DNA from: a virus
Reading direction: 5' to 3' (one strand)
IMG/VR virus record: IMGVR_UViG_3300025096_003057
Coordinates: 1 to 46,382 of that record
Length of the DNA: 46,382 nt
The notes below the pieces were generated by a model. It did no database searches and was not told the origin of the DNA. It worked only from the letters and a program-made list of their open reading frames with translations. Every line of letters begins with the position of its first letter. The stretch's first letter is position 1. The position numbers and the translations under genes were made by a program. Of the stretch, positions 423 to 42,459 are shown one piece after another.

Positions 423-544
423 TTAACCTTACCAAAAGCAAACTGACTACCATCTATCTTTTCCGTAATTTCTACTTCATCATCAAAAATGTTAGAAATG
501 TAGTCTGTACCAATTGCAAATATTTTTGGAAATGCATTAATCAT
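353..544 (-). pseudogene. RNA ligase, N-terminal remnant (63 aa)
   Basis: The first ~46 residues read like the start of an Rnl2-type RNA ligase. ITEKIDGSQFAFGK contains nucleotidyltransferase motif I KxDGS with the AMP-accepting lysine, followed by GELFMR. After FMR the protein loses similarity (IKIGIQRTILAVCKVY) and stops. From about base 404 the DNA instead codes, in a different frame, for the C-terminal part of a DNA methyltransferase. The rest of the ligase (motifs III-V) is absent, so ligation activity is not expected. The ATG is close behind the stop of the epimerase gene at 537, so it was the last gene of the sugar operon. Family recognition rests on one motif and its surroundings. Confidence 0.65.
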
Positions 545-1508
545 TTTTATTCTCCTTATACCAATCTATAGTTTTCCTCATACCATCATAAATATTATTC
601 CAAGAACGATATCCTAAAAGTTTATAAATTTTATCCATATTTAACAATCTCTTTTTAACTGTTGATGGTTTACCTTTTGAGTGTTTAATGTTTTTCTTTT
701 TCACACCCATCATATCTAATATCTTATTAACACTGAAACCCTCTCCATAACCTACATTAAAAATATCAAACTTGTCTACCTTTTCCGTTAATGCTAAAAC
801 ATCTCTTACAAAATCATCTACATAAATAAAATCCCTTACATCCTCACCATCTCCCCACACTTCAAACGGATTCTGACCATCGCAATATTTTTTAATCAAT
901 GCAGCCATTACATGGGAAGTATCAGGATTGAAGTCATCATAAGGACCATATACATTACTCGGTCTAACAATTAAACACTGCATAGGATTTTTTACTTTTG
1001 TGGAATAAAACTCACACAGCTTTTCTACATACCGTTTCATGTGAGCCACTCCAAAATAACAATCTGGAGGATCAGACAAATAACCTTCTGCTTCTAAAAA
1101 GCTTCTATCATTATTAATTACCAACTCTGGATAAACAGCACCACTACTTATAAATACAAACTTTTTTACCCCAGCTTTATGAGCTGCATCCAGAAGATAA
1201 GTATTCATAACTGTATTATCAGTTACCAAAGCTGCAGGATTCTCATTCATAAACTTTGCACCATGCGTCACAGCTGCACAATGTATAATTATATCCATTT
1301 CTTCGACTACATCTTCACAATCTCTTTTTTTAGTTAAATCTCTATACATAAGAAATGCTTTGATAGTTGGATCTTGTAAAACATTGTTGTTAATAACACA
1401 ATATAAATCACAACCCATTAACTGTTCCAATTTTAAAAGCACATTAGTTCCGATAAAGCCACTTGCTCCTGTTACCAATACTTTTTTACCTTTAAAATAA
1501 TCACTCAT
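537..1508 (-). CDS. NAD-dependent nucleotide-sugar epimerase/dehydratase (extended SDR), 323 aa
   Basis: Extended SDR fold: Rossmann motif VTGASGFIG at residues ~12-20, HCAAVTHGA, FISSGAVYP (catalytic Ser region), RPSNVYGPYDDF and RDFIYVDDFV, all typical of sugar-nucleotide epimerases, dehydratases or reductases such as GDP-fucose synthase or dTDP-glucose dehydratase. The catalytic Tyr-x3-Lys is not canonical: the matching stretch reads CYFGVAHMKR, with no Lys four residues after the Tyr. Either the active site has shifted or chemistry has changed. Full length for the family. The start overlaps the stop of the 70-aa gene upstream by ATGA, with a GGGGTG-like ribosome site. It belongs to the sugar cluster; the exact substrate cannot be read from sequence. 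Confidence 0.88.
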   Translation of the reverse strand: MSDYFKGKKVLVTGASGFIGTNVLLKLEQLMGCDLYCVINNNVLQDPTIKAFLMYRDLTKKRDCEDVVEEMDIIIHCAAVTHGAKFMNENPAALVTDNTVMNTYLLDAAHKAGVKKFVFISSGAVYPELVINNDRSFLEAEGYLSDPPDCYFGVAHMKRYVEKLCEFYSTKVKNPMQCLIVRPSNVYGPYDDFNPDTSHVMAALIKKYCDGQNPFEVWGDGEDVRDFIYVDDFVRDVLALTEKVDKFDIFNVGYGEGFSVNKILDMMGVKKKNIKHSKGKPSTVKKRLLNMDKIYKLLGYRSWNNIYDGMRKTIDWYKENKND

Positions 1509-1717
1509 TTCTGTTCACCCCAAATATTTTTTGTAACCCAATCACACCACTTCACAACTATCTCTTTATCAAGCCCAGTAGCTTCATCAATCATTTTTTC
1601 TATTGGTGACCGATTAACTAAAACTGCAATATCAATCCCAGTATCTTCTTTAAATGCTTTTGTTATTCCTTCTACCCCAGAAGACGCTGATACACAGCTC
1701 AACCAAGCCTCTGTCAT
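1505..1717 (-). CDS. Conserved-looking small protein, 70 aa, unknown function
   Basis: I do not recognise the family. The frame is open from a GTG at 1774, but the ATG at 1717 is preceded by GGAG at an ideal 8-base spacing (GGAGATAATATTATG). It also avoids a long overlap with the RmlC-like gene, so it is taken as the start. The product is small and mixed-charge, begins MTEAWLSCVSASSG, contains GITKAFKEDTGIDI and is Trp-rich at the C-terminus (VKWCDWVTKNIWG). No membrane segment or signal peptide is seen. It sits between two sugar-nucleotide genes and ends in an ATGA overlap with the epimerase gene at 537. Confidence 0.6.
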   Translation of the reverse strand: MTEAWLSCVSASSGVEGITKAFKEDTGIDIAVLVNRSPIEKMIDEATGLDKEIVVKWCDWVTKNIWGEQK

Positions 1718-1751
1718 AATATTATCTCCATACGGAATTGACTTCATACCT

Positions 1752-2303
1752 TTAACTGGTTTTTTCATTTTCACACCATTCTATATTATCATCTCGTTTA
1801 GATAAAATTATTTCTTCTTTCCTAACTGGCCATCTTATATTAAATAAAGGTTCATCAAACCTATAAGTAAACTGCATCTCCTTACCTTCATAATAAGACG
1901 ATTGTTTATAATGAAATATAGCTGTATCACTCATAACTAAATGAGCATTTCCATAACACGGAGGTATTAATATCTGCTCCCTTCTTTTTTCAGATAGCAT
2001 AAAACCTTCCCAAAACCCAAATTTATCAGATGTTTCATCACAATTCACAACTACTAAATAAAATTCCCCATACAAACAAGATACTAATTTCCATGTTTTG
2101 TTATCCCCATGGATTCCTCGTAAGACATTTTTTCTTGAAACTGATATATCATCCTGAACAAAATTATCAAAATCTACTAAATATCCTAACTTGCCACCGT
2201 ATCGCTGCCTATTATAAATTTCTATATATTCACCTCTATGATCTATAAAAGGATCAAGTAATATTCTTTTTACTCCATCAAGTGTTGTGTCTTCTACTTT
2301 CAT
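1752..2303 (-). CDS. dTDP-4-dehydrorhamnose 3,5-epimerase-like protein (RmlC cupin), 183 aa
   Basis: RmlC-type cupin: DHRGEYIEIY near the N-terminus, FVQDDISVSRKNVLRGIHGD (residues ~49-68) matching the family FVQDNxSxSxxxVLRGxH with its catalytic His, and IPPCYGNAHLV matching the PPGFAHGF stretch. Length 183 aa is normal for RmlC. In classical RmlC the catalytic His is followed by Tyr-Gln; here it is followed by Gly-Asp, and the later HGF is altered, so substrate or positional specificity may differ. Predicted to epimerise C3 and/or C5 of a 4-keto-6-deoxy nucleotide sugar in the cytoplasm, using the product of the neighbouring dehydratases. It starts within the stop of the epimerase at 2300 (ATGA). 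Confidence 0.82.
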   Translation of the reverse strand: MKVEDTTLDGVKRILLDPFIDHRGEYIEIYNRQRYGGKLGYLVDFDNFVQDDISVSRKNVLRGIHGDNKTWKLVSCLYGEFYLVVVNCDETSDKFGFWEGFMLSEKRREQILIPPCYGNAHLVMSDTAIFHYKQSSYYEGKEMQFTYRFDEPLFNIRWPVRKEEIILSKRDDNIEWCENEKTS

Positions 2304-3358
2304 CTAAAATAATTTTTCCTCAATTTGTATTCGTTTTGATTTTCCATATACCAATTCCAAGTCTTTTCTAATCCTAACTTTAACGAAGTTAAAAAGTTAT
2401 ACCCCAATTCGTGCCTTGCTAAAGAAATATCTAAAACTCTTTTTGAAGGTTTTGATTTCTCTTCACTAAAATTATACTCAAAACCGATAATATCTTTTAA
2501 AGTTTCTACTAATTCTTTTATACTTATCCCTTCACCTCCACCGAGATTATAAAATGGTAAAGTATAATCAGTCATTAATGCCAAAATAATCCCTTGTGCG
2601 ATATCTTCACTATAGCAAAAATCCCTTATAGCAGTGCCGTCACCTAAAACTATTATTGGAGGATGAGTAAGATTATTTTCCTCTTTATATTTTAATATTT
2701 TAGACATTAATGACGGAATTACCATTGCATTATCAGCATCAAAGTTATCTCCTTCACCATATACATTACCAAGTCTTACAAACTTATAATCTACTAACCC
2801 ATGTTGAATTTTGTAAGTCATTATCTGATGCTCTCCCATTCTCTTAGCCCACCCAGGATACTCGTCCATAGGTGGCAAAGGAGTATCATCACTCTCTTTA
2901 AAAACTTCTAATGGCTTATACAAATCATATCCTTCAAGTTGATCTATTATCTTAAAAGCTGGATAAGCACCTATACTGCTTGTATAAATTAATTTCTCTA
3001 CATTTGCTCTCCTACTCGCTTCAAGTACATTAGTGTTCATTTGAAGTAAAGGTACAAAGAAAGATGCTGGTTTTTCTTTCGTTACCTTTGGGCTTCCTTT
3101 TATACCAGCAGTATGAAATACATAATGAATATTGTGCTGTTTTAACAATTCGTAGAAACCACTAAAATCTGATAAATCTCCATATCTATAAATTACTTTT
3201 TTGTTCAAATTTTGAATCTTATCTAATGACACTGATACTACATGAGCAGAGGTATTCTCAACTAACAAATCACAAATTTTTCGTCCGATCATTCCGGTTC
3301 CACCTGTAATTAATACATTTTTCTTATTAAACTTTTCCCAAATTTCTTTTTTTATCAT
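2300..3358 (-). CDS. NAD-dependent nucleotide-sugar epimerase/dehydratase, 352 aa
   Basis: Extended SDR with Rossmann motif ITGGTGMIG at ~17-25, FHTAGIKGSP, YTSSIGAYP (Ser of the triad), RLGNVYGEGDNF and DGTAIRDFCYSEDIA. The Tyr/Lys pair reads EYPGWAKRMGE, so Lys is five rather than four residues after the Tyr and Pro occupies the usual Tyr position; function could be altered. The best parallel is the GDP-fucose synthase / UDP-glucose epimerase group. Co-transcribed with the RmlC-like gene (ATGA overlap). The start at 3358 lies just beyond the stop of the small membrane gene at 3369. Fold assignment is secure, reaction is not. Confidence 0.87.
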   Translation of the reverse strand: MIKKEIWEKFNKKNVLITGGTGMIGRKICDLLVENTSAHVVSVSLDKIQNLNKKVIYRYGDLSDFSGFYELLKQHNIHYVFHTAGIKGSPKVTKEKPASFFVPLLQMNTNVLEASRRANVEKLIYTSSIGAYPAFKIIDQLEGYDLYKPLEVFKESDDTPLPPMDEYPGWAKRMGEHQIMTYKIQHGLVDYKFVRLGNVYGEGDNFDADNAMVIPSLMSKILKYKEENNLTHPPIIVLGDGTAIRDFCYSEDIAQGIILALMTDYTLPFYNLGGGEGISIKELVETLKDIIGFEYNFSEEKSKPSKRVLDISLARHELGYNFLTSLKLGLEKTWNWYMENQNEYKLRKNYFR

Positions 3359-3368
3359 ACAACCTCTC

Positions 3369-3512
3369 TTAAAATATCCATACCAGCAAAGCTATCACAC
3401 CAACAAAAGGTAAACTAATAATAGATAATATTGATAAACAAACTAATATTATAAATAATACAATACCAACAACCATTCCAATCTCTAACAATGTTTCAAA
3501 AAAATAATTCAT
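3369..3512 (-). CDS. Small hydrophobic membrane protein, 47 aa
   Basis: A short reading frame that begins in an ATGA overlap with the stop of the SDR gene (3509) and fills the gap before the epimerase at 3358. After a short MNYFFETLLE head, almost all remaining residues are hydrophobic (IGMVVGIVLFIILVC, then LSIISLPFVGVIALLVWIF), enough for two tightly linked membrane passes or one long one. No family recognised. The overlap and exact packing into the operon argue for a real gene. Role unknown; an inner-membrane accessory to the sugar cluster is only a guess. Confidence 0.6.
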   Translation of the reverse strand: MNYFFETLLEIGMVVGIVLFIILVCLSILSIISLPFVGVIALLVWIF

Positions 3513-4243
3513 ATAGATACACTCTCCCCTCCATCTACAACTATATTTGCACCATTAATATAACTTGCTTCATCTGAACACAAAAACCTTACTACATTCG
3601 CTACATCTTCTGGCTTACCAATTCTTCCCATAGGTGTATTTTTTATTATGTCTTTAAATTCGTCTGTATCTTTATTTTTTTCATAACTATAACCACAAGA
3701 AATATGTCCGGGCAAAATTGTATTGAATGTAACTCCTTTACTCACACATCTTTTTCTTGACATACTTTTCATATAAGCAATTTGTGCTGATTTTGCTGCA
3801 GTAAAATACTTATTCTTAAAAGCTTCCTTACCGTAAATAGACGCAATAGCAATAACTCTACCCCACTTCTTCGCACACATACGCTCTAAATACTGCTCAG
3901 TAAAAAACACACTAAGGCCATAATTCTTTTCCATGACCTCCATATAGTTTGTCCACGAACCTCCTCCACCAACATTGTTAACTAAAATATCAATATGTTC
4001 AATACTATCTCTAAACACCCACCTATTGTCTCTATACATAATATTTAACGTACGAACTTGATGACAAATATCAGGTTTCTTATAATTAATATCTAACTCG
4101 TCATGTAAAGTTCTAACTTCATTTTTATCCCTACCAAAAGTAATTATTCTACATCCCTCTTTGGCAAGAGCAATACATACCGCTCTTCCGATACCTTTTG
4201 TACCGCCAGTTACTAATGCTGTTTTATTTTTAAGATTTGACAT
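3509..4243 (-). CDS. Short-chain dehydrogenase/reductase (SDR), 244 aa
   Basis: Classical SDR: TGGTKGIG cofactor motif (~12-19), DILVNNVGGGG, VIAIASIYG (catalytic Ser), NTILPGHIS, and a C-terminal PEDVANVVRFLCSDEASYINGA stretch typical of FabG-like enzymes. The usual YxxxK is YFTAAK: the Lys aligned with Phe four residues earlier, and the Tyr one residue further out. That is a real departure from consensus and is shared in kind with two epimerases of this cluster. Probable role: NAD(P)-dependent reduction or oxidation of a keto-sugar. It overlaps the FkbM-like gene at its start and the small membrane gene at its end. Confidence 0.87.
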   Translation of the reverse strand: MSNLKNKTALVTGGTKGIGRAVCIALAKEGCRIITFGRDKNEVRTLHDELDINYKKPDICHQVRTLNIMYRDNRWVFRDSIEHIDILVNNVGGGGSWTNYMEVMEKNYGLSVFFTEQYLERMCAKKWGRVIAIASIYGKEAFKNKYFTAAKSAQIAYMKSMSRKRCVSKGVTFNTILPGHISCGYSYEKNKDTDEFKDIIKNTPMGRIGKPEDVANVVRFLCSDEASYINGANIVVDGGESVSI

Positions 4244-5234
4244 CGCTTCTTATTTGTAGTGCCTCCCCAGTATTTTTTAAAAAGAATTGATTATCTGTTT
4301 TATAATTATTCAAATTTGCATTTATATGATGATGAAGTTTAACCAACCTGTTGTAACCGAAACTATCACACATATCTCTTATATCATTTCTTATAACTTC
4401 TGTATCTCCTTTTTCTATACAAAGTCTTTCTAATATTGCATAAGTATAAGACAATTTCTCGTAACAAAAAGCTATTGCTGCCTGTTTAATAAGTTTTAAA
4501 TCATCACTTTCTTCAAACATTGAATCTACTGTTCTCATCCACAATGCTTCACCTACTGTTAAAAACCCACCTCCTGCTGCAGGACCAGGATGCCATCTTT
4601 GTAATCCATAAAGATCAGCTAGCCTTATATTATTTGCTTCATAGTATTCAGTTTGATCTGAAAATAAAGCCTGTCCTTTGTATATTTCATAAAATTCTAC
4701 TTCTGTAAATAAAGCACCTACATCTTTAATATAATCTCCCATTCCTTTTATAACTTCCAATTCCATACCTTGCACATCAGCTACTATTAAATCAGGTGTT
4801 ACTCCTTCTTTATCTATAAATTCTTTTAATGTTATCGCATCTAACTCAACTACCTTATCAAGCTCAGTATTCTCACCCCACGTAGTAATTTTCCTATCAG
4901 TAGTAAAAGGTACTATATGTTCATTTATTGTTTTTTCACTTGGTGGTAATAAGGAACTGCTTGGAGTTTGTTTATTCAAATAAAACTTTTGCAAACCACT
5001 TTTACCTGACACAGCCCTGTTGATTACTACAACTCTAACCCCTAAATTCAAATACTGTTGATATGCTTTCTTATCATAATCTCCAAACTCCCTTGCTTCA
5101 AAAGCATAGATAACTGTCCTATATGGAAATTTAGTAACCACAGAGTCAATAGCAGCACTACCACCTGCTCCAGCACCTATAACAAATAATACTATATCTT
5201 TGTCTTCTACTTCAAAATCAGTTATTGATTTCAT
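4230..5234 (-). CDS. FkbM-family SAM-dependent methyltransferase, 334 aa
   Basis: The N-terminal half shows a SAM-binding Rossmann start, VIGAGAGGSAA (~18-28), an acidic residue after beta-2 (YAFEAREFG), VVINRAVSGKSG, and the FkbM hallmark DLIVADVQGMELEVIKGM (~153-170) followed by LFTEVEFYEIY. FkbM enzymes usually O-methylate sugars or polyketides. Beyond ~residue 230 is a ~100-residue helical tail rich in charged residues, longer than the FkbM core, of unknown role. The position between an SDR and another methyltransferase-like gene supports methylation of the sugar built by this cluster. The start overlaps the preceding gene by 4 bases. Confidence 0.8.
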   Translation of the reverse strand: MKSITDFEVEDKDIVLFVIGAGAGGSAAIDSVVTKFPYRTVIYAFEAREFGDYDKKAYQQYLNLGVRVVVINRAVSGKSGLQKFYLNKQTPSSSLLPPSEKTINEHIVPFTTDRKITTWGENTELDKVVELDAITLKEFIDKEGVTPDLIVADVQGMELEVIKGMGDYIKDVGALFTEVEFYEIYKGQALFSDQTEYYEANNIRLADLYGLQRWHPGPAAGGGFLTVGEALWMRTVDSMFEESDDLKLIKQAAIAFCYEKLSYTYAILERLCIEKGDTEVIRNDIRDMCDSFGYNRLVKLHHHINANLNNYKTDNQFFLKNTGEALQIRSDVKS

Positions 5235-5941
5235 CTATTCTCCGCCATGATTGGTTTAAAATATTTTACTAAATCATATTTATGATGATCTAATGGTGCT
5301 GGTGTTGCATATAAAATACCTCTGTATCTTTTTACATCTGAGCTATTGGCAAACTTTATACCATCAAGCACATCTTCATCTACTGTTATAGATAAATCCT
5401 TAACTGTCTCTTCTGTATTGATATCACAATATTCTTTCGTATTTACATAATAATGAAAATTAGGATTGACTTGTTGCAAGTGTTTACCAACTACATTCCA
5501 ATCTAAAGCTTCACCATCATACACTAAATGACCAAGCCCTGAACATTTAAAATCATGTATTATAATTACACACTCTCTCAATCCTTTTAAAGCTTGAAGT
5601 TCTTTAACAACCACCCACCTATCTTCTGGCTTTGCATTTGGCTGGTAAAAGTGGGCATCAAGATAGAACATATTTCCAAGTAATGAGCGTCGTCTAACAC
5701 TTTTAAAATAATTCCAACTATTTGCCAAAAGACAAAAAACATTACGTTTTCCATTAATTCTTTGCTTTACTTTCTCGTAATTTTTTACATCACTTTCAAT
5801 AGTAACAACTTCTTCGAAATTATGACTATGAAGCTCTGCATTAACTCCTCTAAATGATCCTGTCTCAAACAAAGTGTCAACTTTAAAATCATCTCTTAAT
5901 TTTTTAATTTGTTCTATTGCTTTATTGTCTGTCCAGCTCAT
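5231..5941 (-). CDS. Class I SAM-dependent methyltransferase-like protein, 236 aa
   Basis: The N-terminal region reads TLFETGSFRGVNAELH (motif I position), VVTIESD (acidic end of beta-2) and, after a helix, NMFYLDAHFYQ and CVIIIHDFKC, giving the strand order of a small-molecule methyltransferase. The glycine pattern (ETGSFRG) is weaker than the canonical ExGxGxG, so cofactor binding is not certain. Three start codons in a row follow AGGAGG; the last ATG (5941) has the best spacing. The gene starts beside the stop of the VWA gene and overlaps the FkbM-like gene at its end. Likely to act on the same sugar or its carrier, but this is inferred from position. Confidence 0.62.
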   Translation of the reverse strand: MSWTDNKAIEQIKKLRDDFKVDTLFETGSFRGVNAELHSHNFEEVVTIESDVKNYEKVKQRINGKRNVFCLLANSWNYFKSVRRRSLLGNMFYLDAHFYQPNAKPEDRWVVVKELQALKGLRECVIIIHDFKCSGLGHLVYDGEALDWNVVGKHLQQVNPNFHYYVNTKEYCDINTEETVKDLSITVDEDVLDGIKFANSSDVKRYRGILYATPAPLDHHKYDLVKYFKPIMAENR

Positions 5942-5943
5942 CA

Positions 5944-6528
5944 TCACCTCCTATAACTTGATACACAATTAGACATAACTCCATAACCAGACCTAACACC
6001 TTTTTTTGTTGCATCAAAATTAAATGAATCTTTTGCTTGAATACCCATTGACATACCAGCCTGTATAGCATCTTGATTAGCTGCAAGAAAAATAAATTCC
6101 CATTTCAATTTTTCCTTCTTTTCCTTTATCATTTCCAAAATCTGTTCTCTTTTAAATTCCCTACTTGAGTTCTCTTCACCATCAGTCAAAATTGCAAATA
6201 TCACCTTCTTAGGCTGTTGACTTTTTTTCAAACCATCAATCCTTTTACCTACTTCATTTATTGTTTTACCAACAGCATCCAATAAAGCAGTAGCTCCTCT
6301 TGGTTGGTAAGTTTTATCAGTTAAATCAGGAACTTTTTTTAATGGTTTATTCTCATGAATAATTTCGTATTCAGTATCAAATTGTGCATATGTAAGAGTC
6401 GCCTCTCCCTTTACTTTTTTCTGCTCCTTTAAAAATGTATTAAATCCACCTATTGCATCATTCACAATAGCCCCCATAGAGCCTGAACGATCAACAACGC
6501 AAACAATTTCTGAATATTTCTTCTTCAT
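5944..6528 (-). CDS. VWA-domain protein, 194 aa
   Basis: A nearly complete von Willebrand factor A domain: VCVVDRSGSMG near residue 9 gives the DxSGS metal-ion-dependent adhesion site, RGATALLDAVG supplies the Thr of the site, and FAILTDGEENS the distal Asp. The remaining part (WEFIFLAANQDA, YGVMSNCVSSYRR) completes the alpha/beta fold. No signal peptide or transmembrane helix, so cytoplasmic. Free-standing phage VWA proteins of this type are known but without a fixed function; they usually mediate protein-protein contacts. Its place among sugar genes is unexplained. It begins in an ATGA overlap with the 62-aa gene upstream. Confidence 0.85.
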   Translation of the reverse strand: MKKKYSEIVCVVDRSGSMGAIVNDAIGGFNTFLKEQKKVKGEATLTYAQFDTEYEIIHENKPLKKVPDLTDKTYQPRGATALLDAVGKTINEVGKRIDGLKKSQQPKKVIFAILTDGEENSSREFKREQILEMIKEKKEKLKWEFIFLAANQDAIQAGMSMGIQAKDSFNFDATKKGVRSGYGVMSNCVSSYRR

Positions 6529-6713
6529 ACTTTCTCCTTTCTAATTAATAGATTTATCATTCTATATTCATTAATAACTTTTTCTAAAACATTAGCCATC
6601 AACCTCTTTAGTATCTCTTCTCCATTTTTATAAATTTGAGGTTTAACAAAATCAAATGTTTCATTCAATTTAGATATCGGGACTCTCCAAGCAAAATATA
6701 TTTTTGTACTCAT
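6525..6713 (-). CDS. Small unknown protein, 62 aa
   Basis: The frame is open from 6743, but the ATG at 6713 has AAAGGA about ten bases upstream and starts directly after the E1-beta stop, so it is preferred. The product starts MSTKIYFAWRVPISKL and then forms a long amphipathic helix (EEILKRLMANVLEKVINEYRMINLL). No known domain and no cysteine motif. The stop overlaps the start of the VWA gene (ATGA). Function unknown; it may be co-translated with E1-beta and the VWA protein. Confidence 0.55.
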   Translation of the reverse strand: MSTKIYFAWRVPISKLNETFDFVKPQIYKNGEEILKRLMANVLEKVINEYRMINLLIRKEKV

Positions 6714-6714
6714 A

Positions 6715-7782
6715 TCAAAATGGTCCTTTAAATTTATTTTCATGCGAATAGCAATCTACATCACGTAGATCAGGTACACGTAATCCTAACCTATTTGTAA
6801 CTTTTAAAACTATATCTTTTACATCATAATAAAAATCATTCTCAAGATGTCTTGCAGTAGGACAAGGAGTATTCTTCCAACCTATTCTTGAAAAATTAAT
6901 AGGATTATGTGTAAGATTAAATTTACCATCGAGATACTTTGCTAAGAACCCAGCCCCAACACTATTGCTCAACCAATCATCCTCAACAATAATACATTCA
7001 TCTGTGTTAATACAACTGACTATTAAATCTATATCAAGATTAGATAACCTTTTTAAATCTATTATATTAGTCTTCACAGAACACTTACTCCATAAAACAT
7101 CTGCAGCTTTTTTACACTCAACTACCCCCCACGAATAACTTAATAAAGTTATATCTGCTTCACCATCAGACCTATAAGGATGTACTACAGTTTGAAAAGG
7201 CTGTTCAAAATCAGATTCCAAAACACAAGGATGAACTTCTTGCTCTTGCCAATACAACCATCTATGTTCAAAACAAATAACAGGACTATTACTTCTAATT
7301 GCCTTAGTCAACATCCCTTTCATATCTATTGGATTTGAAGGGGCTATAACTATCAATCCGGGTACATGAGTAAATAAAGAAAATAAACTTTTACTATGCT
7401 GAAAACCTTGCCCCCATCCTCTTCCAATTATTATCCTTATAACTATTGGGCATAATAGTTGATTATTGCTCATATACTGAATACCAGACATCATATTAAT
7501 TATCTGATTCATAGCAAGCAAAGCAAAATCTGCTCTAATATGTATTTGTACAGGTCTCATGCCATTCATTGCTGCCCCTATCCCAAACCCAGTAAGCGAA
7601 TCTTCACTAAGCGGAGTATCGAACACTCTATTTTTACCGAACTTTTCTTGTAATCCTATAGTTGTACCAAATATTCCCTTAAAATCATCACAACCTATTC
7701 CATAACAGAAAACATTTTTATCTCGTTCCATTTCCTGTATTAAAGTTGTTCTTATTGCTTCTGCATAAGTCAATTTCTGCAT
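6715..7782 (-). CDS. Thiamine-dependent E1 beta-like subunit (transketolase C-terminal type), 355 aa
   Basis: Resembles the beta subunit of pyruvate/2-oxo acid dehydrogenase E1. MQKLTYAEAIRTTLIQEM opens the pyrimidine-binding domain, RVFDTPLSEDSLTGFGIGAA carries the conserved Glu region, RGWGQGFQHS and FTHVPGLIVIAPS follow, and the C-terminal domain has WGVVECKKAAD and NTDECIIVEDDW. The motif CFEHRWLYW is what I recall from E1-beta homologues in polysaccharide clusters rather than metabolic E1. The partner alpha subunit is at 8444-9313. No E2 (lipoyl) or E3 gene is present in the window, so oxidative acyl-CoA formation is unlikely; acyl transfer to a keto-sugar is the favoured guess. Overlaps the HNH gene by 13 bases. 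Confidence 0.85.
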   Translation of the reverse strand: MQKLTYAEAIRTTLIQEMERDKNVFCYGIGCDDFKGIFGTTIGLQEKFGKNRVFDTPLSEDSLTGFGIGAAMNGMRPVQIHIRADFALLAMNQIINMMSGIQYMSNNQLLCPIVIRIIIGRGWGQGFQHSKSLFSLFTHVPGLIVIAPSNPIDMKGMLTKAIRSNSPVICFEHRWLYWQEQEVHPCVLESDFEQPFQTVVHPYRSDGEADITLLSYSWGVVECKKAADVLWSKCSVKTNIIDLKRLSNLDIDLIVSCINTDECIIVEDDWLSNSVGAGFLAKYLDGKFNLTHNPINFSRIGWKNTPCPTARHLENDFYYDVKDIVLKVTNRLGLRVPDLRDVDCYSHENKFKGPF

Positions 7783-8447
7783 AATCTTTTAACCCAAAAA
7801 GCCCTATTGTAATTAGTTTTCATATGACATTTCTTACATAAGGAAATTAGATTTTCTGACACACTATTCTTTTTATTATAATCAATATGATGTACTCCTA
7901 ACTTATAATCTAATTCTTCCTGTTTAATTCCGCATTCTTGGCAAGTATAATTATCTCTTTTTCTAATTTCCTCTTTTAACTTTTCATTAAATTCTATCCC
8001 ATATGGCTCAAAAGAAACACCGCCTACCCAGTTAGGATGGTCTTTCCCTAAAGAATATATACGATTCAGACTTATCTTTTCTCTGGTTTCTTTACTATGA
8101 TTCTTTCCGTACATACCATTATTTTTACCAACAGTAGCATTTCTAATTTTTTCTATAGTTGCTTTAGAATGTTTTCTACCAATATGAGCTTTTCTATTGA
8201 GCTCCTTCGTTTCTTTCGTATGATTCCTTCCATAAAAAGGATTATTTTTACCTAAATAATCTGGACTATTTAAACTCATTTTAATAAGTGATTCTTTAGA
8301 ATGTTTTTTACCAAGAAAAGGATTATTACTACCTCTATTCTGATGCCCATTAATAAAGGTATTAAACCTCTGATTATACTTATTCCAAATAGGAAATTCA
8401 CTACAACCACATTCACAAAACTTTTTTAGTAGATTTATTGTTCTCAT
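7770..8447 (-). CDS. HNH homing endonuclease with NUMOD3 repeats, 225 aa
   Basis: The N-terminal CECGCSEFPIW resembles a small zinc knuckle. Residues ~40-130 hold several NUMOD3-like DNA-binding repeats (NNPFLGKKHSKES, NNPFYGRNHTKET, HIGRKHSKATIEK, NNGMYGKNHSKET). The C-terminal ~80 residues are the HNH nuclease: CQECG, VHHIDYNKKN, ENLISLCKKCH. It sits between the E1 alpha and beta genes, beginning in an ATGA overlap with alpha and ending inside beta's start, so it is a free-standing insertion in the operon that left both hosts' frames intact. A close relative occurs at 42452-43126, which suggests movement within this genome. Domain call is firm; cleavage target unknown. Confidence 0.9.
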   Translation of the reverse strand: MRTINLLKKFCECGCSEFPIWNKYNQRFNTFINGHQNRGSNNPFLGKKHSKESLIKMSLNSPDYLGKNNPFYGRNHTKETKELNRKAHIGRKHSKATIEKIRNATVGKNNGMYGKNHSKETREKISLNRIYSLGKDHPNWVGGVSFEPYGIEFNEKLKEEIRKRDNYTCQECGIKQEELDYKLGVHHIDYNKKNSVSENLISLCKKCHMKTNYNRAFWVKRLCRN

Positions 8448-9313
8448 ACTGTACTTTTCACTTTTTCTAAACTCTTATTAACTTTCTTATTTATATTATA
8501 CTCAATTCCACTTACAACACCTGCATCAACTATATCTTTTATTAACTGTTTTTCTAACATCAACACAGGATCAACAGTTGTTATATCTGGTTTTACTCTA
8601 TATCCTTCATCATAATCTTCATTGATACCAACATGCTCAAGCATACGATGATAACTACAATGAAGAAACAACGGGGTTGTTTTATTCTTACAAACTTTAT
8701 AATAAATACTACTATAGTCACAAACACCGAACCAACCATAATTACTACGATGTAAATCCATATAGCACAATACAGTATTCAATTTTGAATGTACTGCCAA
8801 GCCATTATCTTCACAAACAAAAATAATAGGTAAATCATAAAGAAACGCAATATTAACACTTTCCCAAAATGCACCTTCCTGAACTGCACCATCACCAAAA
8901 AATACCACTACAATCTTATCATTCTTTTTTTGTTTATTTGCCCAAGCATAGCCACAAGCAACCGATATCTGACTTGCCACTATCGCCGACGACATTATGA
9001 ATCCTTTTTCAGGATAACATAAATGCATTGAACCGCCTCTTCCTCCAAGAACAGACTCTTTTCTGCCGTACATCTCTAAAAAGAATTGGTCAGTATCCTC
9101 TGTCCTTGCAAGAAAAGGAGCATGTGAACGGTACGAAGAGGAAACTTGTGCTCTATCGCCAAGCGATAAACATACAGCAGATGATATATGCTCAGAACCC
9201 ATGCTCATGTGCATGGGAGTCTTCATACCGTCATTATTATATTCTCTTATTATTGCATTCTCACATGCTCTGATGAGATACATTTTTTTGTAAAGCTCTA
9301 ACTCAATATTCAT
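8444..9313 (-). CDS. Thiamine-dependent E1 alpha-like subunit, 289 aa
   Basis: E1-alpha fold: HMSMGSEHISSAVC, SSYRSHAPFLA, GGRGGSMHLCYPE, and the thiamine-diphosphate motif VVVFFGDGAVQEGAFW...CEDN (GDG followed ~27 residues later by Asn). It is shorter than metabolic E1-alpha (usually over 320 aa) and lacks the regulatory serine loop. The stretch LEHVGINEDYDEGYR matches, from memory, E1-alpha-like proteins of lipopolysaccharide and antibiotic sugar clusters. Together with E1-beta (6715-7782) it should form a heterotetramer using thiamine diphosphate to transfer an activated acyl or aldehyde unit. Flanked by sugar-nucleotide genes; no lipoyl carrier is seen. Confidence 0.86.
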   Translation of the reverse strand: MNIELELYKKMYLIRACENAIIREYNNDGMKTPMHMSMGSEHISSAVCLSLGDRAQVSSSYRSHAPFLARTEDTDQFFLEMYGRKESVLGGRGGSMHLCYPEKGFIMSSAIVASQISVACGYAWANKQKKNDKIVVVFFGDGAVQEGAFWESVNIAFLYDLPIIFVCEDNGLAVHSKLNTVLCYMDLHRSNYGWFGVCDYSSIYYKVCKNKTTPLFLHCSYHRMLEHVGINEDYDEGYRVKPDITTVDPVLMLEKQLIKDIVDAGVVSGIEYNINKKVNKSLEKVKSTV

Positions 9314-9543
9314 TTTGGAGTTTCTTTAGATTTAATTGCCATATCAAGACCTATATCTTTTTCTCCGAAGCACTCCTCACCCTTTAGAAAAAGATCATAA
9401 TTAAAAGCAATGAACTTGAATAAAATTACTGCCGAACTTGTTTTTTCCAGTCTTGCAAATTCCTCAATCATCGCAAATTTTTGAACATAATCACGACTCA
9501 TGAAATTGAAAAATTCTTTTGTAAATTTGTCTTTTGTGATCAT
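9310..9543 (-). CDS. Small unknown protein, 77 aa
   Basis: Preceded by a good ribosome site (AGGA, nine bases before ATG) and ending in a 4-base overlap with the E1-alpha start. Predicted mostly helical and charged (MITKDKFTKEFFNFMSRD at the start, then FARLEKTSSAVILFKF), with no cysteine motif, signal peptide or membrane segment. I recognise no family. The overlap with E1-alpha suggests translational coupling. Confidence 0.55.
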   Translation of the reverse strand: MITKDKFTKEFFNFMSRDYVQKFAMIEEFARLEKTSSAVILFKFIAFNYDLFLKGEECFGEKDIGLDMAIKSKETPK

Positions 9544-9573
9544 ATTGATATTTCCTATAAAGGCAGATTTAGA

Positions 9574-9693
9574 TTAATTAACTGTTCCATATTTTTTCTG
9601 ATTAAATGTATATTTTACTGCAGTCTTAGCTGTTAATAAATTAATCAAAGCATTTGCTCCATTACTATCTCCTTCACTTTGACTTCCACCCAT
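9574..9693 (-). CDS. Small Gly/Asn-rich protein, 39 aa
   Basis: Starts with an ATG inside the last codons of the 133-aa membrane protein (20-base overlap, different frame) and runs through the otherwise empty gap to 9574. Sequence opens MGGSQSEGDSNGANALINLL and continues TAKTAVKYTFNQKKYGTVN. A Gly/Ser-rich head followed by an ALxxLLTAK helix is a pattern I recall in small phage proteins of unknown role encoded next to head or membrane proteins. GGTAC upstream is a poor ribosome site, so coupling to the upstream gene is probable. Confidence 0.45.
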   Translation of the reverse strand: MGGSQSEGDSNGANALINLLTAKTAVKYTFNQKKYGTVN

Positions 9694-10075
9694 CTGTACC
9701 CCTACCAGTACCTGCTAAAGGATTTGGCTCTCTTAATTTATTTCCATCTGAATCTACTTTTGGTAATTTCACTTTCACTCTTATTTTACTTTTTCCTGTT
9801 AAATCAGTAGGGTCAAGAATTTCTCTTTCCTGTGTTTCAGTAATATATGGACCATTGTCAATTTCAATAACCTCTTTAGTCACCCCTACTTCATTTTTTA
9901 AAACTTGTACTTTGCTTCTTGCTTTGACTAATTCTTCTTCCTTCTTTCTTAAAAGCTCTTCTTTTTCTTCAATAGACACACCTCCTTTCTTTTTAAAAGA
10001 TTTATTAATAATCCAGTATAAAACACCAAAAATTATTCCTGTTACAACTATAGTCCCAAGTATTTGTGCGAACAT
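9674..10075 (-). CDS. Single-pass membrane protein with coiled coil, 133 aa
   Basis: Residues ~4-25 form a transmembrane segment (ILGTIVVTGIIFGVLYWII), followed by a basic stop-transfer NKSFKKKGG and a long coiled coil (~33-65, EEKEELLRKKEEELVKARS). The C-terminal half is polar with IRVKVKLPKVDSDGN, probably beta-structured and cytoplasmic. A GGAGGG-like ribosome site lies just upstream. Function unknown; topology suggests an inner-membrane anchor. The small gene at 9574 starts within its last codons. Confidence 0.65.
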   Translation of the reverse strand: MFAQILGTIVVTGIIFGVLYWIINKSFKKKGGVSIEEKEELLRKKEEELVKARSKVQVLKNEVGVTKEVIEIDNGPYITETQEREILDPTDLTGKSKIRVKVKLPKVDSDGNKLREPNPLAGTGRGTDGWKSK

Positions 10076-10090
10076 TTCACCCTCCTTTCT

Positions 10091-11119
10091 TCACTTATCA
10101 ACACTTTTGACTTTCCAAGGATTAATTTTTAACTCCTCCCTCCAATAAGTTAAGATAGAATAAAGCGTGTCATCAATACTGTATAAAGGTTCCCACCCTG
10201 TCAGCTTTCTAAACTTTGAAGAATCTGGAATCTGAGTTGTAACATCAGAAAGTCTTATTAATTTTTTATCAATACTAACCCTATCAAATTCTACTCCCAA
10301 GTCAGATAGCTCAAGTAATTTTTTTAAAATATGGCGTATAGTAATTTCCTTATCTCCTCCGATATTAAAAACTTCCCCATAGTCTTTAACTTTAGTTACT
10401 AATAACCAATAAGCTCTTACAGCATCACGAACATCCATAAAAGTTCTACTTGAATAAAGATTCCCGACTTTCATTTCCTTCAGTAATCCTAATTCAATTC
10501 CAACAATTTGTTTTGCAAAAGCTGATAAGACAAATACATCTCCTCTCCTTGCTCCACTATGGCTAAATAATCTTGTCCTTAATATTTTAATTCCATAACT
10601 TTGATGATATTGATAACCCAACATATCCTCAGCTACCTTACTAACAGCGTATGGAGATACTGGTTTTAATGGAGTCAACTCATTTGTAGGTTGGTCTTCT
10701 TTTAACACTTCCCCATACACCTCTGATGAAGAAGCAATTTGTATTACAGGGTCAATCTCTCCTATAGCGTGTCGAAAACGGACTGCCTCCAACAAATTAC
10801 AAGTTCCAATTACATTTCTTTGTAAAGTATCTATTGGAGAGGTAAAAGAAGTTTTCACATAAGATTGTGCAGCAAGATGAAAAATAATTTCTGGTTTAAT
10901 CTTTCTTACAAGTATTTTTAAAGAAGCTAAATCTAATAAATCACCTTCCACTAATTTAATTTGATTAATACAACTTTTTAAATTTTCCCGATTACTTCTC
11001 CATCTACAAAGCCCATATACCTCATGCTCTTCTTGTAGATTTAAAATATGTTCTGCTAAATGACTTCCTACAAATCCAGTTATTCCTGTTATTAATACTC
11101 TAATATTACCTTTATTCAT
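10091..11119 (-). CDS. GDP-mannose 4,6-dehydratase-like nucleotide-sugar dehydratase, 342 aa
   Basis: Extended SDR with ITGITGFVGSHLAE (~11-24), GLCRWRSNRENL, FHLAAQSYVKTSF, IQIASSSEVYGEV (Ser/Glu of dehydratases), and an intact catalytic YAVSK (~158-162). FSHSGARRGDVFVLSAFAKQ and SRTFMDVRDAV match GDP-mannose 4,6-dehydratase and the related 4-reductase RMD. This is the only member of the cluster's SDR set with canonical YxxxK, so it is the likely entry enzyme that makes the 4-keto-6-deoxy sugar. Full length. A broken paralogue lies just upstream at 11279-11479. Confidence 0.88.
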   Translation of the reverse strand: MNKGNIRVLITGITGFVGSHLAEHILNLQEEHEVYGLCRWRSNRENLKSCINQIKLVEGDLLDLASLKILVRKIKPEIIFHLAAQSYVKTSFTSPIDTLQRNVIGTCNLLEAVRFRHAIGEIDPVIQIASSSEVYGEVLKEDQPTNELTPLKPVSPYAVSKVAEDMLGYQYHQSYGIKILRTRLFSHSGARRGDVFVLSAFAKQIVGIELGLLKEMKVGNLYSSRTFMDVRDAVRAYWLLVTKVKDYGEVFNIGGDKEITIRHILKKLLELSDLGVEFDRVSIDKKLIRLSDVTTQIPDSSKFRKLTGWEPLYSIDDTLYSILTYWREELKINPWKVKSVDK

Positions 11120-11278: not shown

Positions 11279-11479
11279 TTACTCCTTAAAAATTATACTC
11301 CCGACATTCAATAATAAATCACCTTCTAATAACTTTAAATTTTTATCATTGATACAATTCTTCAAATTATCTCTGGGACTTCGCCATCTACATAATCCAT
11401 AAACAATATGTTCTTCATTTAAAGCTAAAATATACTCAGCAAGAAAACTCCCAACAAACCCAGTTGTCCCCGTTATCAA
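11279..11479 (-). pseudogene. Truncated GDP-mannose dehydratase paralogue (first ~57 residues only)
   Basis: Begins with a TTG start that shares bases with the recombinase stop (TTGA), with AAAGGAG upstream. ITGTTGFVGSFLAEYILAL, then EEHIVYGLCRWRSPRDNL and KLLEGDLL, aligns with the first ~60 residues of the dehydratase at 10091 but breaks into LNVGSIIFKE and stops. The active-site half is missing. At DNA level the two copies look clearly diverged, so this is either an old duplication or a separately acquired relative, not a recent copy. It may still be translated, but could only be a Rossmann fragment. Confidence 0.8.
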
Positions 11480-14924: not shown

Positions 14925-17288
14925 TTAATCCCCTAAAATTTCATTAATATCAACCATATCAAACCAATTTTCTCCTACAGAACAATCAACTTCTAAAGGT
15001 ACATTTATAAAAGGTAAATCTAAATTAGTCATAATATCTTTTATCTCATTATACGAACTTTCTACTTTGTCATCTGGGATATAAAAAGAATTATCATCAT
15101 GAATCGTCCAGCACATTCTATATCCTTTTTTTATGGACTTAATTAAAGATTTTAAAGTAAAATCTGCCGCCAATGATTGGATCGGAGTATTTATAATTTG
15201 GTTGTAACTCAAAGGAGCATATCTCTTCCGACCAAATAATGATTCTACATAACCATTTTTATCATAAAATTTTTTAACTTTCACTTGCCATCTCTTCATT
15301 CCAGGGAACTCTTTAAATAGCTCATCCTGTAATTGTTTAGATATATCTTCTTTAATATCTAAAGACTCAGCAATTGATTTATAGGAAGCCCCATAAAACG
15401 AAGGAAACACAAATGAATTTTTACCTTCGTGTCTTGTAGTTTCCCTACCAGTTAATTCTTTTATTCTATCCGCCCAGAACTGATGCATATCATATTTTTC
15501 TTTAATATATTTAATCAATGTACTGTCCTTTGATTCCATAGCCATACCCCTAACTTCCGCACCACTATAATCAAAAGACATAATCAAATGATCTTTAGGA
15601 GCATTAAACATTCCCCGAATAAATCTATTTTTCCTCTTTGGAATATTTTGCATATTCGGATTCGTACCTGACAACCTACCTGTCCCAGTAAGATGAAGAT
15701 TAAAACTTGGGTGCAATAATCCATCATCATAAAGAACATCTTCAAGCCCATCTACATAAGTCGACAACAACTTCGCTAACCCACGATACTCCAATAAAAA
15801 TTCACAGAAAGGTTCTTTTTTATAATGTTCTAATACTTCCTTATCCACACTATTCTTACCTTTAGCAGTTTTCTTAATTGATTTCAATTTTAACACATTA
15901 AATAAAATTTTAGATATTTGATCTGGTGAATTTAAATCCTTAATATCTGTCAAAATAATTCCATTTCTTTTCAGAATATCTTTTAAATTTTTTATTGCTA
16001 TTGTCTGTTTACTAATTAATTTACCCCTAATATCTTTCACTACAGATTTATCAACTAGAACACCTTCTATTTCAGAATCAAGTATAGTATCTGTCCCAGG
16101 AAGTAATAAATCATAATAAATTTTAGATTGTTTATCATCTGTATCCATATAAATCCATTTGCATTCTTCTAATGCAAAAGTTAATCGGGCATCTCTTCCC
16201 TGATAATCATGTAATAATGTTGTAGGACACCTCCTCATATCTTTTTTATATTTATTAGCTTCTTTAATTTTACCAACCCCAAAATTAACAAATGATTGAA
16301 ACTCAAGATTATTCGTACCTTTTCGTGAATCTTCTAAATAAGAAACCAACATCATATCTCTAATGTCACCTGTTATATCAACTCCTAATCTGTTGACCGC
16401 CCAATCTTTTTCAAACTTATAATTAAAAAATACTTTAGGACAATCAGAATTAAACAATTCATCAAACTCAAATACTAATTCTTTCCACTGCTCATCACTC
16501 CAATTACCTTCCATAAGAAACGTATATGATTCATTTGCCCCAATAGCTATCCCGCAACTAACAATAACTGAATCTTCATTATATGGACGCAATGGGTATG
16601 TTTCCCAATCTAAAGCAAATTTTAAACTATCCTTTCTTATACTTCTTAATACATCAATAACATCATCAAACTCTTCTAATACAGTATTACCTTTAGTGAA
16701 ATCATTTAACTTTAAATCTTTATTCTTTAAAATTTTTAATTTCGATAAATCATTTTCAAAGATAGTTTTATATTCATAATCTTTTAATACTTTGGTTGGA
16801 TGATAGGTAGGAACTATATAGCAATTGTAATCTGTGGACAATAATTGGTAACCACTATATTTAGAAACAGCACTCTCATTTAAAATAGCCTTACAAGCCA
16901 CCCCTCCTAACAAAACCATTATCTTTGGTTGAACTTGCTTAATATCTTCCTGAAGGAATTTAAAACAGCATTTTATTTCTTTAGCAGTAGGAGTTCTATT
17001 TTTTTCTGGTCTGCATCTTACACTGTTAGTTATAAAACAATCTTCAGCTTTAATCTTAAATTTCTTTAAAGTATTTCTTAACAACTCCCCAGATTTCCCA
17101 AGGAAAGGTCTGCCTTGTCTATCTTCCTCCCGCATAGGAGCTTCGCCAATAATCATAATGTCAGCTTCAGAATTGCCCGATCCTTTCATTACAGGAGTCT
17201 TACAGTTCTTATCTAACTTACAAACCGAGCAGTCATAAACTGACCCAGTGCTTTTCGATTTTTTAATTCTAACAGGGAAAAAAGACAT
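14925..17288 (-). CDS. Uracil-DNA glycosylase / DNA polymerase A fusion, 787 aa
   Basis: Three parts in order. Residues ~15-185 are a family-4-type uracil-DNA glycosylase: CSVCKLDKNC (iron-sulfur cysteines), MIIGEAPMREEDRQGRPF (motif A) and PTYHPT (motif B His). Residues ~215-400 are a DEDD 3'-5' exonuclease (FALDWETYPL, DYQGRDARLT). The rest is polymerase A: TGTGRLSGTNPNMQNIP, motif A SFDYSGAEVRGMAM, O-helix region NSFVFPSFYGASY, NTPIQSLAADF, and motif C WTIHDD in place of the usual HDE. Such UDG-PolA fusions are known from SPO1-like phages. It is the replicative polymerase; the fused glycosylase could remove or sense uracil at the fork. Confidence 0.92.
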   Translation of the reverse strand: MSFFPVRIKKSKSTGSVYDCSVCKLDKNCKTPVMKGSGNSEADIMIIGEAPMREEDRQGRPFLGKSGELLRNTLKKFKIKAEDCFITNSVRCRPEKNRTPTAKEIKCCFKFLQEDIKQVQPKIMVLLGGVACKAILNESAVSKYSGYQLLSTDYNCYIVPTYHPTKVLKDYEYKTIFENDLSKLKILKNKDLKLNDFTKGNTVLEEFDDVIDVLRSIRKDSLKFALDWETYPLRPYNEDSVIVSCGIAIGANESYTFLMEGNWSDEQWKELVFEFDELFNSDCPKVFFNYKFEKDWAVNRLGVDITGDIRDMMLVSYLEDSRKGTNNLEFQSFVNFGVGKIKEANKYKKDMRRCPTTLLHDYQGRDARLTFALEECKWIYMDTDDKQSKIYYDLLLPGTDTILDSEIEGVLVDKSVVKDIRGKLISKQTIAIKNLKDILKRNGIILTDIKDLNSPDQISKILFNVLKLKSIKKTAKGKNSVDKEVLEHYKKEPFCEFLLEYRGLAKLLSTYVDGLEDVLYDDGLLHPSFNLHLTGTGRLSGTNPNMQNIPKRKNRFIRGMFNAPKDHLIMSFDYSGAEVRGMAMESKDSTLIKYIKEKYDMHQFWADRIKELTGRETTRHEGKNSFVFPSFYGASYKSIAESLDIKEDISKQLQDELFKEFPGMKRWQVKVKKFYDKNGYVESLFGRKRYAPLSYNQIINTPIQSLAADFTLKSLIKSIKKGYRMCWTIHDDNSFYIPDDKVESSYNEIKDIMTNLDLPFINVPLEVDCSVGENWFDMVDINEILGD

Positions 17289-41694: not shown

Positions 41695-42459
41695 CTAAAC
41701 TCTCTCAATAATTTCATCAAGTTTCTTTTGGTGCTCAATATTTTTTACAATTTTTAAATTTCCATTATTCCTTTTATTTTGTTCTTCAACTAAAAGATCA
41801 TTGACTCTTTTTAATGACATACGATCAACCTTATGGTCACAATGAACATTTTTATCTACATATATTTTATAACCAATGTCTATTGCATTATCACAAAAGA
41901 TAAAATCTTGACCACAAGATATTTCACCTCTCTCATTATATTTACTTTCATAAAACATTGTTCGTCCTGTAGTTTTTAATAAATGCTCTTTCATCTTTAC
42001 TATAACTTCTCTTTTTATTAACACACAAGAAGCACCAGTAGCAGAACATTCTTGCAACCTTATATCTTTATTCTTTTGCCAATCTACATTAGAATAGCCT
42101 CCATTTACTTTATCTAAAATAACCGCAAATGGATATCCATATTGAAAGCTGAAACAAGTAGCACCGACAATATCTTTGTCATGTCTAACTAATTCATCTA
42201 TACAATTCTGTGGTGGAACAATGTCACTATCTATTGTTAAAACATAATCATTATCACTTTCTAAAAATCTATGCATAGCTTTGTTTCTGACACTGTCTAT
42301 CGGTTTTCCGTCAACTATATCTATATTTAAAATATATTTTCCTGGTTCTATAAAATTATAATGCGTTACATTTTTCAAAACCCACATGAAAAGTTCTGGC
42401 TCAATTCTTGTGTATGGAGCAATCGGGATGCTTATAAGAATTTTTTTAGGTTTATCCAT
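41695..42459 (-). CDS. Glycosyltransferase-like protein (GT-A fold), 254 aa
   Basis: ILISIPIAPYTRIEPELF start, SVRNKAMHRFLESDNDYVLTIDSDIVPP (~59-86) with a DxD-type DSD and an NxAxxxFL helix before it, as in GT2-type glycosyltransferases. IVGATCFSFQYGYPFA and ATGASCVLIKREVI, then CGQDFIFCDNA (catalytic acidic region) and VHCDHKVDR follow. A nucleotide-sugar-dependent enzyme placed inside the tail gene cluster, between the HNH gene and virion genes; the tail or cell-surface glycans are possible acceptors, and the sugar cluster at 537-11119 may supply its donor. Fold call is firm, acceptor is unknown. Confidence 0.75.
   Translation of the reverse strand: MDKPKKILISIPIAPYTRIEPELFMWVLKNVTHYNFIEPGKYILNIDIVDGKPIDSVRNKAMHRFLESDNDYVLTIDSDIVPPQNCIDELVRHDKDIVGATCFSFQYGYPFAVILDKVNGGYSNVDWQKNKDIRLQECSATGASCVLIKREVIVKMKEHLLKTTGRTMFYESKYNERGEISCGQDFIFCDNAIDIGYKIYVDKNVHCDHKVDRMSLKRVNDLLVEEQNKRNNGNLKIVKNIEHQKKLDEIIERV

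Follow-up and report, generated by a model that had tools for sequence, protein, structure and literature searches.

The window analysed here, an IMG/VR virus record of 46,382 bases (IMGVR_UViG_3300025096_003057), encodes two proteins resembling the alpha and beta subunits of the thiamine diphosphate (ThDP)-dependent E1 component of 2-oxoacid dehydrogenases, set among genes for nucleotide-sugar enzymes. The initial annotation had pointed to this E1 pair among sugar genes; every open reading frame (ORF) it named was recovered in place on the minus strand, and Pfam bore out the families and coordinates of the pair in its sugar-gene setting. The E1-alpha-like subunit (8444..9313, 289 aa; E1_dh, 6.9e-35) and the E1-beta-like subunit (6715..7782; Transket_pyr, 2.8e-28; Transketolase_C, 4.1e-11), which ends in an FKGPF tail, have a GMD-type dehydratase on one side (10091..11119; GDP_Man_Dehyd, 2.3e-75). 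On the other side lie an RmlC-type cupin epimerase (1752..2303; dTDP_sugar_isom, 1.4e-37) and two extended short-chain dehydrogenases/reductases (SDRs), the GDP-fucose-synthase-like SDR_e2 (2300..3358; Epimerase, 1.8e-42) and SDR_e1 (537..1508; Epimerase, 2.4e-47), all on the minus strand. The pathway runs on past the left edge of the window, as seen on a sibling contig that is identical to the window over the first 37.9 kb and 98.3% identical over the remainder. Beyond that edge the sibling encodes a HddA-like kinase, a HddC-like nucleotidyltransferase and a B12-binding radical S-adenosylmethionine (SAM) enzyme.

As first noted for the window, no gene for E2 (PF00198) or E3 (PF02852) was found in this record, nor in ten related viral records that include contigs of 351 and 548 kb. 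The phylogenies of both subunits, which the initial annotation had proposed as a check, point in the same direction. They comprise 76 E1-beta and 77 E1-alpha sequences of viral, plasmid or genomic origin, a subunit being called E2-linked when an E2 gene lay within the retrieved DNA. In the beta tree all 27 E2-linked subunits fall on one side of a branch (support 100/100) and every viral subunit on the other, while in the alpha tree the 26 E2-linked subunits are likewise all on one side (100/99), so that both window subunits stand outside metabolic pyruvate dehydrogenase (PDH); the outcome that the initial annotation had named as refuting its idea did not arise. The pair belongs to a sugar-module clade of 13 rows, six viral and seven cellular (support 100/99 for beta and 100/100 for alpha); its viral members group together in the alpha tree (99/90). 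Many E1-betas in the sample end in a conserved F-x-G-P-F or F-x-G-P-Y tail, some with Y for the first F. An E2 gene is near none of the 38 tailed E1-betas, and none of the 27 E2-linked E1-betas has the tail, counts in which the rows share descent and are not independent events; 14 E1-betas have neither tail nor E2, the flanking DNA being short for half of these. In most tailed betas a W-G-Q-G stretch precedes the catalytic histidine.

Given the above, we infer that the E1 pair is an E2-independent, stand-alone ThDP carboligase and not part of a dehydrogenase complex. Its fold and catalytic histidines are those of pyruvate and branched-chain 2-oxoacid dehydrogenase E1s, from which it differs in its separate clade, its C-terminal tail and its lack of E2 and E3. 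E1-beta H129 and E60 and E1-alpha H227, H64, D141 and N170 are invariant in the alignments, and H129 and H227 align with H128-beta and H271-alpha, key residues in the mechanism of PDH E1 (PMC2663715). The AlphaFold model of E1-beta (predicted local distance difference test, pLDDT, 82.5) matches human PDH E1b with template-modelling (TM) scores of 0.86/0.92, and that of E1-alpha (pLDDT 79.8, predicted TM 0.83) matches PDH E1 at about 0.8. Fold and residues of this kind are expected of carboligases too and hence are not diagnostic of a metabolic E1. It is therefore extremely unlikely that the virus borrowed a metabolic PDH E1 to serve the E2 and E3 of the host and so boost acetyl-CoA: PDH E1 supplies the overall fold and the nearest solved structures, but both trees separate the pair from all E2-linked E1s and the sugar-gene context is conserved. 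Identity as a metabolic PDH subunit was ruled out on the trees together with the failure to find E2 or E3.

The same genes recur, with variation, well beyond the window. GMD, E1-alpha, E1-beta, SDR_e2, RmlC and SDR_e1 are found in nine viral contig types, namely the window with its identical siblings, L004, L005, L006, L007, L012, L136, L138 and L139; in the partial locus L138, RmlC and a clear SDR_e2 were not seen. SDR_e1 is also in the module of L004, the L005 contig, L006, L012, L136 and the cellular locus L100, and a classical SDR (3509..4243 in the window, minus strand; adh_short_C2, 4.9e-32) is kept in L004, L005, L136 and L100. The order GMD-E1a-E1b is kept in viruses and archaea (the window, L004, L006, L012, L014, L136 and L138). 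This neighbourhood, or most of the same genes, is present in a Thermoplasmatota genome (L014), a Euryarchaeota metagenome-assembled genome (L015) and a bacterial genome (L100), and in the Thermoplasmatales locus L014 a SDR_e2 homologue (48% identity) immediately follows E1b. The gene order shared with genomes of Thermoplasmatota and bacteria suggests a module that moves across the boundaries of both viruses and domains. Full-length, high-scoring E1-betas of the clade occur in only a few genomes among the 299 sampled from the phylum of G013 and the 194 from Thermoplasmatota.

Searching the viral collection with a beta-subunit profile gave 24 contigs that carry relatives. E1 pairs are thus rare in viruses, in keeping with the initial description of them as unusual phage cargo, yet they are recurrent; a search of the open-access literature turned up no description of such pairs in phages. 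Named phage records were not used, most being small and, in our judgement, bacterial-looking, with in addition a transketolase-like gene of P-TIM68. As terminase (PF03237) was found in none of ten viral records and tail sheath (PF04984) in one of nine, the large contigs are taken as viral chiefly on the strength of their IMG/VR calls.

Several enzymes of the module bear on which sugar is modified. The closest solved relative of the dehydratase is a GDP-heptose enzyme (PDB 7us5, 3.4e-69, with a shared SSSEVYG motif), compared with about 5e-37 for GDP-mannose 4,6-dehydratases. The nearest relatives of the RmlC-type epimerase are GDP-4-keto-heptose 3,5-epimerases (PDB 7m14, 7an4 and 8db5, about 3e-29), compared with 1.2e-23 for the RmlC of dTDP-rhamnose. 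Kin of HddA and HddC are encoded by the sibling, L004, the L005 contig and the cellular L100. In L004 the best solved relative of the kinase is D-glycero-D-manno-heptose 7-phosphate kinase and that of the transferase is a 6-deoxy-mannoheptose-pathway transferase. The kinase ORF of the sibling (L118, about 9345, minus strand) has no ATG, GTG or TTG at its full-length start and may use an ATT start or contain a frameshift. A tailed E1 pair of Azospirillum oryzae (L154) is found together with GmhA-like and HldE-like genes.

The GDP-6-deoxy-heptose pathway of Campylobacter jejuni thus supplies the nearest solved relatives of the dehydratase and epimerase, and the viral module has Fcl-like reductases and, as candidates, HddA/HddC kin. 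As reviewed, that route consists of GmhA, HddA, GmhB, a guanylyltransferase, a 4,6-dehydratase, an epimerase and a reductase, with no thiamine enzyme listed (PMC10680097). The viruses differ further in that GmhA was not found and in having extra genes for a B12 radical SAM enzyme, a FkbM-type protein and a classical SDR. Since the relatives of the dehydratase and epimerase, like the kinase and guanylyltransferase kin, all indicate a Campylobacter-type heptose pathway, a GDP-activated 6-deoxy-heptose is a likelier backbone than a deoxy-hexose. The nucleotide-sugar context of the deoxy-sugar nucleotide initially proposed thus stands, with its backbone revised. Under an unlikely alternative, implied by the initial annotation, the same carboligase would act on a mannose-derived GDP-4-keto-6-deoxy-hexose and the module would yield a C2-branched octose. 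The homologies to GMD, Fcl and GDP-mannose 3,5-epimerase fit GDP-mannose too, and the known products of E1 pairs derive from hexose or pentose. However, the E-value of the dehydratase is some 30 orders of magnitude better to the heptose enzyme, and the epimerase and the kinase and nucleotidyltransferase kin indicate heptose as well.

E1 pairs that form branches have been described chiefly in antibiotic clusters of actinobacteria. A comparable reaction is carried out in yersiniose formation by YerE, which attaches an acetyl branch at C4 of a nucleotide 4-keto sugar and is a single thiamine pyrophosphate flavoprotein of the decarboxylase superfamily. The type of chemistry proposed for the window pair is the same, whereas the pair has two chains; membership in the YerE family was rejected, the best matches being E1_dh and Transket_pyr/Transketolase_C on separate chains. 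The nearest functional analogues are instead AviB1/B2, Pau11/12 and KbDH, in agreement with the analogy to branch-forming pairs drawn initially. KbDH-alpha/beta uses ketone acceptors in vitro, and the aldgamycin enzyme has been studied by feeding and knockout (PMC12247030). AviB1/B2, Pau11/12 and EvdU5/EvdS3 are proposed ketone-accepting alphaKADH2 enzymes (PMC12247030, PMC4425429, PMC10338323). Like the window pair, the alphaKADH2 carboligases have separate alpha and beta E1-like genes, a keto-sugar context and a presumed pyruvate donor (PMC12247030, PMC4425429, PMC10338323), and the pair shares with them both the lack of E2 and E3 and a location beside keto-sugar-forming enzymes. Whereas those enzymes act on hexoses or pentoses in actinobacterial antibiotic pathways, the window pair is viral, with archaeal and bacterial relatives, and accompanies GDP-heptose-type enzymes, the comparison being one of gene arrangement and context.

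On balance, we favour the view that the pair may well be an E2-independent, ketone-accepting carboligase of the AviB1/B2 and KbDH kind that adds a C2 branch to GDP-4-keto-6-deoxy-heptose, by analogy with those systems. In such a pathway the HddA-like and HddC-like enzymes encoded outside the window would feed in GDP-heptose from host-made heptose 7-phosphate, and the GMD-type dehydratase would make GDP-6-deoxy-4-keto-heptose, the most likely substrate, which the RmlC-type enzyme might optionally epimerise at C3/C5. The E1 pair would then decarboxylate pyruvate and join the acetyl C2 unit to the ketone carbon of the GDP-sugar to yield an acetyl-branched tertiary alcohol, and the SDRs would reduce the ketone of the new branch, that of the ring, or both. 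SDR_e1, whose best PDB match is GDP-mannose 3,5-epimerase (2.8e-35) followed by GDP-L-fucose synthase (2e-26), is a candidate C4-reductase/epimerase; SDR_e2, closest in PDB to GDP-fucose synthetase (6.8e-26), is a candidate for reducing the ketone of either the branch or the ring. The FkbM gene product and the B12 radical SAM enzyme from outside the window may decorate the product, which a glycosyltransferase would place on the virion or host surface.

In three of the contigs a further enzyme accompanies the pair. Genes for the N and C portions of a split transketolase follow it directly or closely in L006 (11978-13679), L012 (11038-12766) and L138 (9396-11119), beside a conserved 319-aa protein that matches no known family and with an aldo/keto reductase nearby. 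Split-gene transketolases have been proposed for miharamycin and amipurimycin, with 13 putative cases, all in Streptomycetes (PMC12247030). The viral contigs resemble these cases in having a split transketolase in a keto-sugar cluster, but here it lies next to an E1 pair; no split transketolase was seen in the window phage. The split transketolase beside the pair, together with the resemblance of the E1b fold to both split transketolase and 1-deoxy-D-xylulose-5-phosphate synthase (DXPS), could suit a role upstream, in which the pair would lengthen a sugar-phosphate aldehyde by a pyruvate-derived acetyl unit in a DXPS-like manner and the resulting deoxy-ketose phosphate would be activated by the HddA/HddC-like enzymes. 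This appears improbable, as the pair is tightly linked to a dehydratase that forms a 4-keto sugar and its top family matches are to E1 and not to DXPS.

Several observations weigh against a carboligase acting on a GDP-keto-heptose. The members of the clade are unassayed, and the trees cover two uncharacterised Streptomyces plasmid pairs (L024 and L153) in place of AviB1/B2, Pau11/12 and KbDH. Both of these tailed pairs are outside clear sugar clusters; accordingly the tail marks E2-independence and not sugar work, and a sugar-exclusive meaning for it was dropped. The supply of heptose also appears incomplete: the top NCBIfam models for the L004 kinase and transferase are HddA and HddC, with scores under the curated equivalog cut-offs, and a search of eight viral records for SIS_2 (GmhA, sedoheptulose-7-phosphate isomerase) gave no match, which would leave heptose 7-phosphate to come from the host. 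A GHMP kinase was not found in G004 and G007, the two largest contigs first found. Lastly, the variable loop of E1-alpha after the ThDP-binding motif (residues ~173-193) is shortened and of low confidence in the AlphaFold model.

The shortened loop, together with a homing endonuclease at the alpha/beta junction, raises the possibility that the module is decaying and the pair non-functional. The window E1-alpha has 289 aa compared with 304-334 in most viral kin, and the segment following CEDNGLAVHS is diverged and shorter in both the window and L005. The free-standing endonuclease (7770..8447, minus strand), whose product has both NUMOD3 repeats (3.3e-23) and an HNH domain (1.2e-6), as expected of a homing endonuclease, was not mentioned in the initial annotation; its gene overlaps E1-alpha at that gene's end and E1-beta at its start. 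No such insert is present at this junction in L004, L006, L007 or L012, and the two subunit genes of L004 adjoin directly, overlapping by 4 bases, while L005 has three unrelated ORFs there. Just upstream of the intact GMD, moreover, an N-terminal remnant of a second GMD allele (11279-11479, minus strand; 75% identical over 56 residues) suggests allele replacement by recombination. Decay is nevertheless very unlikely, as both frames are open, the catalytic residues are intact and the reading frames are identical in independent contigs. Ratios of nonsynonymous to synonymous substitution against L005 are 0.18 for E1-alpha, 0.14 for E1-beta and 0.13-0.35 across the module genes tested, indicating purifying selection. 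A frameshifted or decayed E1-alpha was rejected on the same grounds. Between the window and L005 the module genes are 61-87% identical whereas the nearby polymerase and clamp loader genes are 96-98% identical, which indicates faster evolution or recombination of the module than of these two replication genes.

Related NUMOD3/HNH endonucleases occur more than once in a single phage (window 7770-8447 and 42452-43126; L120 8447-9223 and 11516-12037), one lying between E1-alpha and E1-beta and another adjoining the tape-measure gene. In L005 an HNH gene lies between RecA and GMD, and an ARPP-1 domain protein and an RlaP RNA-repair nucleotidyltransferase (14941-15921, 16603-17382) are found among the module genes. 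On the sibling contig a 1136-aa Type ISP-like restriction-modification protein (L118 9503-12913, minus strand) lies between SDR_e1 and the HddA-like kinase. Elsewhere in the window a uracil-DNA-glycosylase domain (UDG, 4.6e-33) is fused N-terminally to a family A DNA polymerase (14925-17288; DNA_pol_A, 5.3e-75).

The remaining genes of the window module concern decoration and transfer of the sugar. The product was initially described as methylated, which its genes do not support. A putative FkbM-type methyltransferase (4230..5234, minus strand; Methyltransf_21, 3.5e-9) passes the NCBIfam cut-off of TIGR01444 narrowly (38.4 bits versus 37.7). The second gene called methyltransferase-like (5231..5947, minus strand) had no family match in Pfam, PHROGs or NCBIfam; its conserved product, with homologues in L005 (77% identity) and L136 (43%), has motif-like stretches (FETGS, YLDAH) of a possible SAM fold. 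Adjacent to it is a VWA-like protein matching phrog_7371 in PHROGs (5944-6528). The B12-binding radical SAM protein just outside the window recurs with the module (L118 6127-7515, minus strand; L123, L125, L136 and L100). It is nearest to P- and C-methyltransferases and AprD4-type enzymes and could C-methylate or deoxygenate the sugar. The gene at 41695..42459 (minus strand), initially proposed as the partner glycosyltransferase, is the only one in the window and lies near tail genes. It may encode a GT-A enzyme (Anp1, 29.1 bits versus a cut-off of 28.8; PF00535, 17 bits, under cut-off), but co-occurrence, a weak GT-A signal and this neighbourhood do not support a partnership with the module. 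Among the relatives, one GT2 gene lies inside the L004 module, and G004, G007, G507 and G508 have eight to ten GT2 matches each.

Taken further, viruses might carry a mobile pathway for C2-branched heptoses, in which a F-x-G-P-F-tailed, E2-free E1 carboligase acts on GDP-6-deoxy-4-keto-heptose, with a split transketolase added in some large viruses as another enzyme that forms branches, a proposal we put forward tentatively. If it is true, the pathway would yield a class of sugars that, to our knowledge, is undescribed for viruses. The kind of enzyme is already known; the viral, heptose-linked, tailed version is new. The module offers compact and naturally diverse examples of E1 pairs with a specific predicted substrate, and the tail provides a sequence mark that separates E2-free from E2-linked E1s within our sample. 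The findings suggest that some phages make their own unusual higher-carbon sugar, plausibly altering the glycans of the virion or the host surface.

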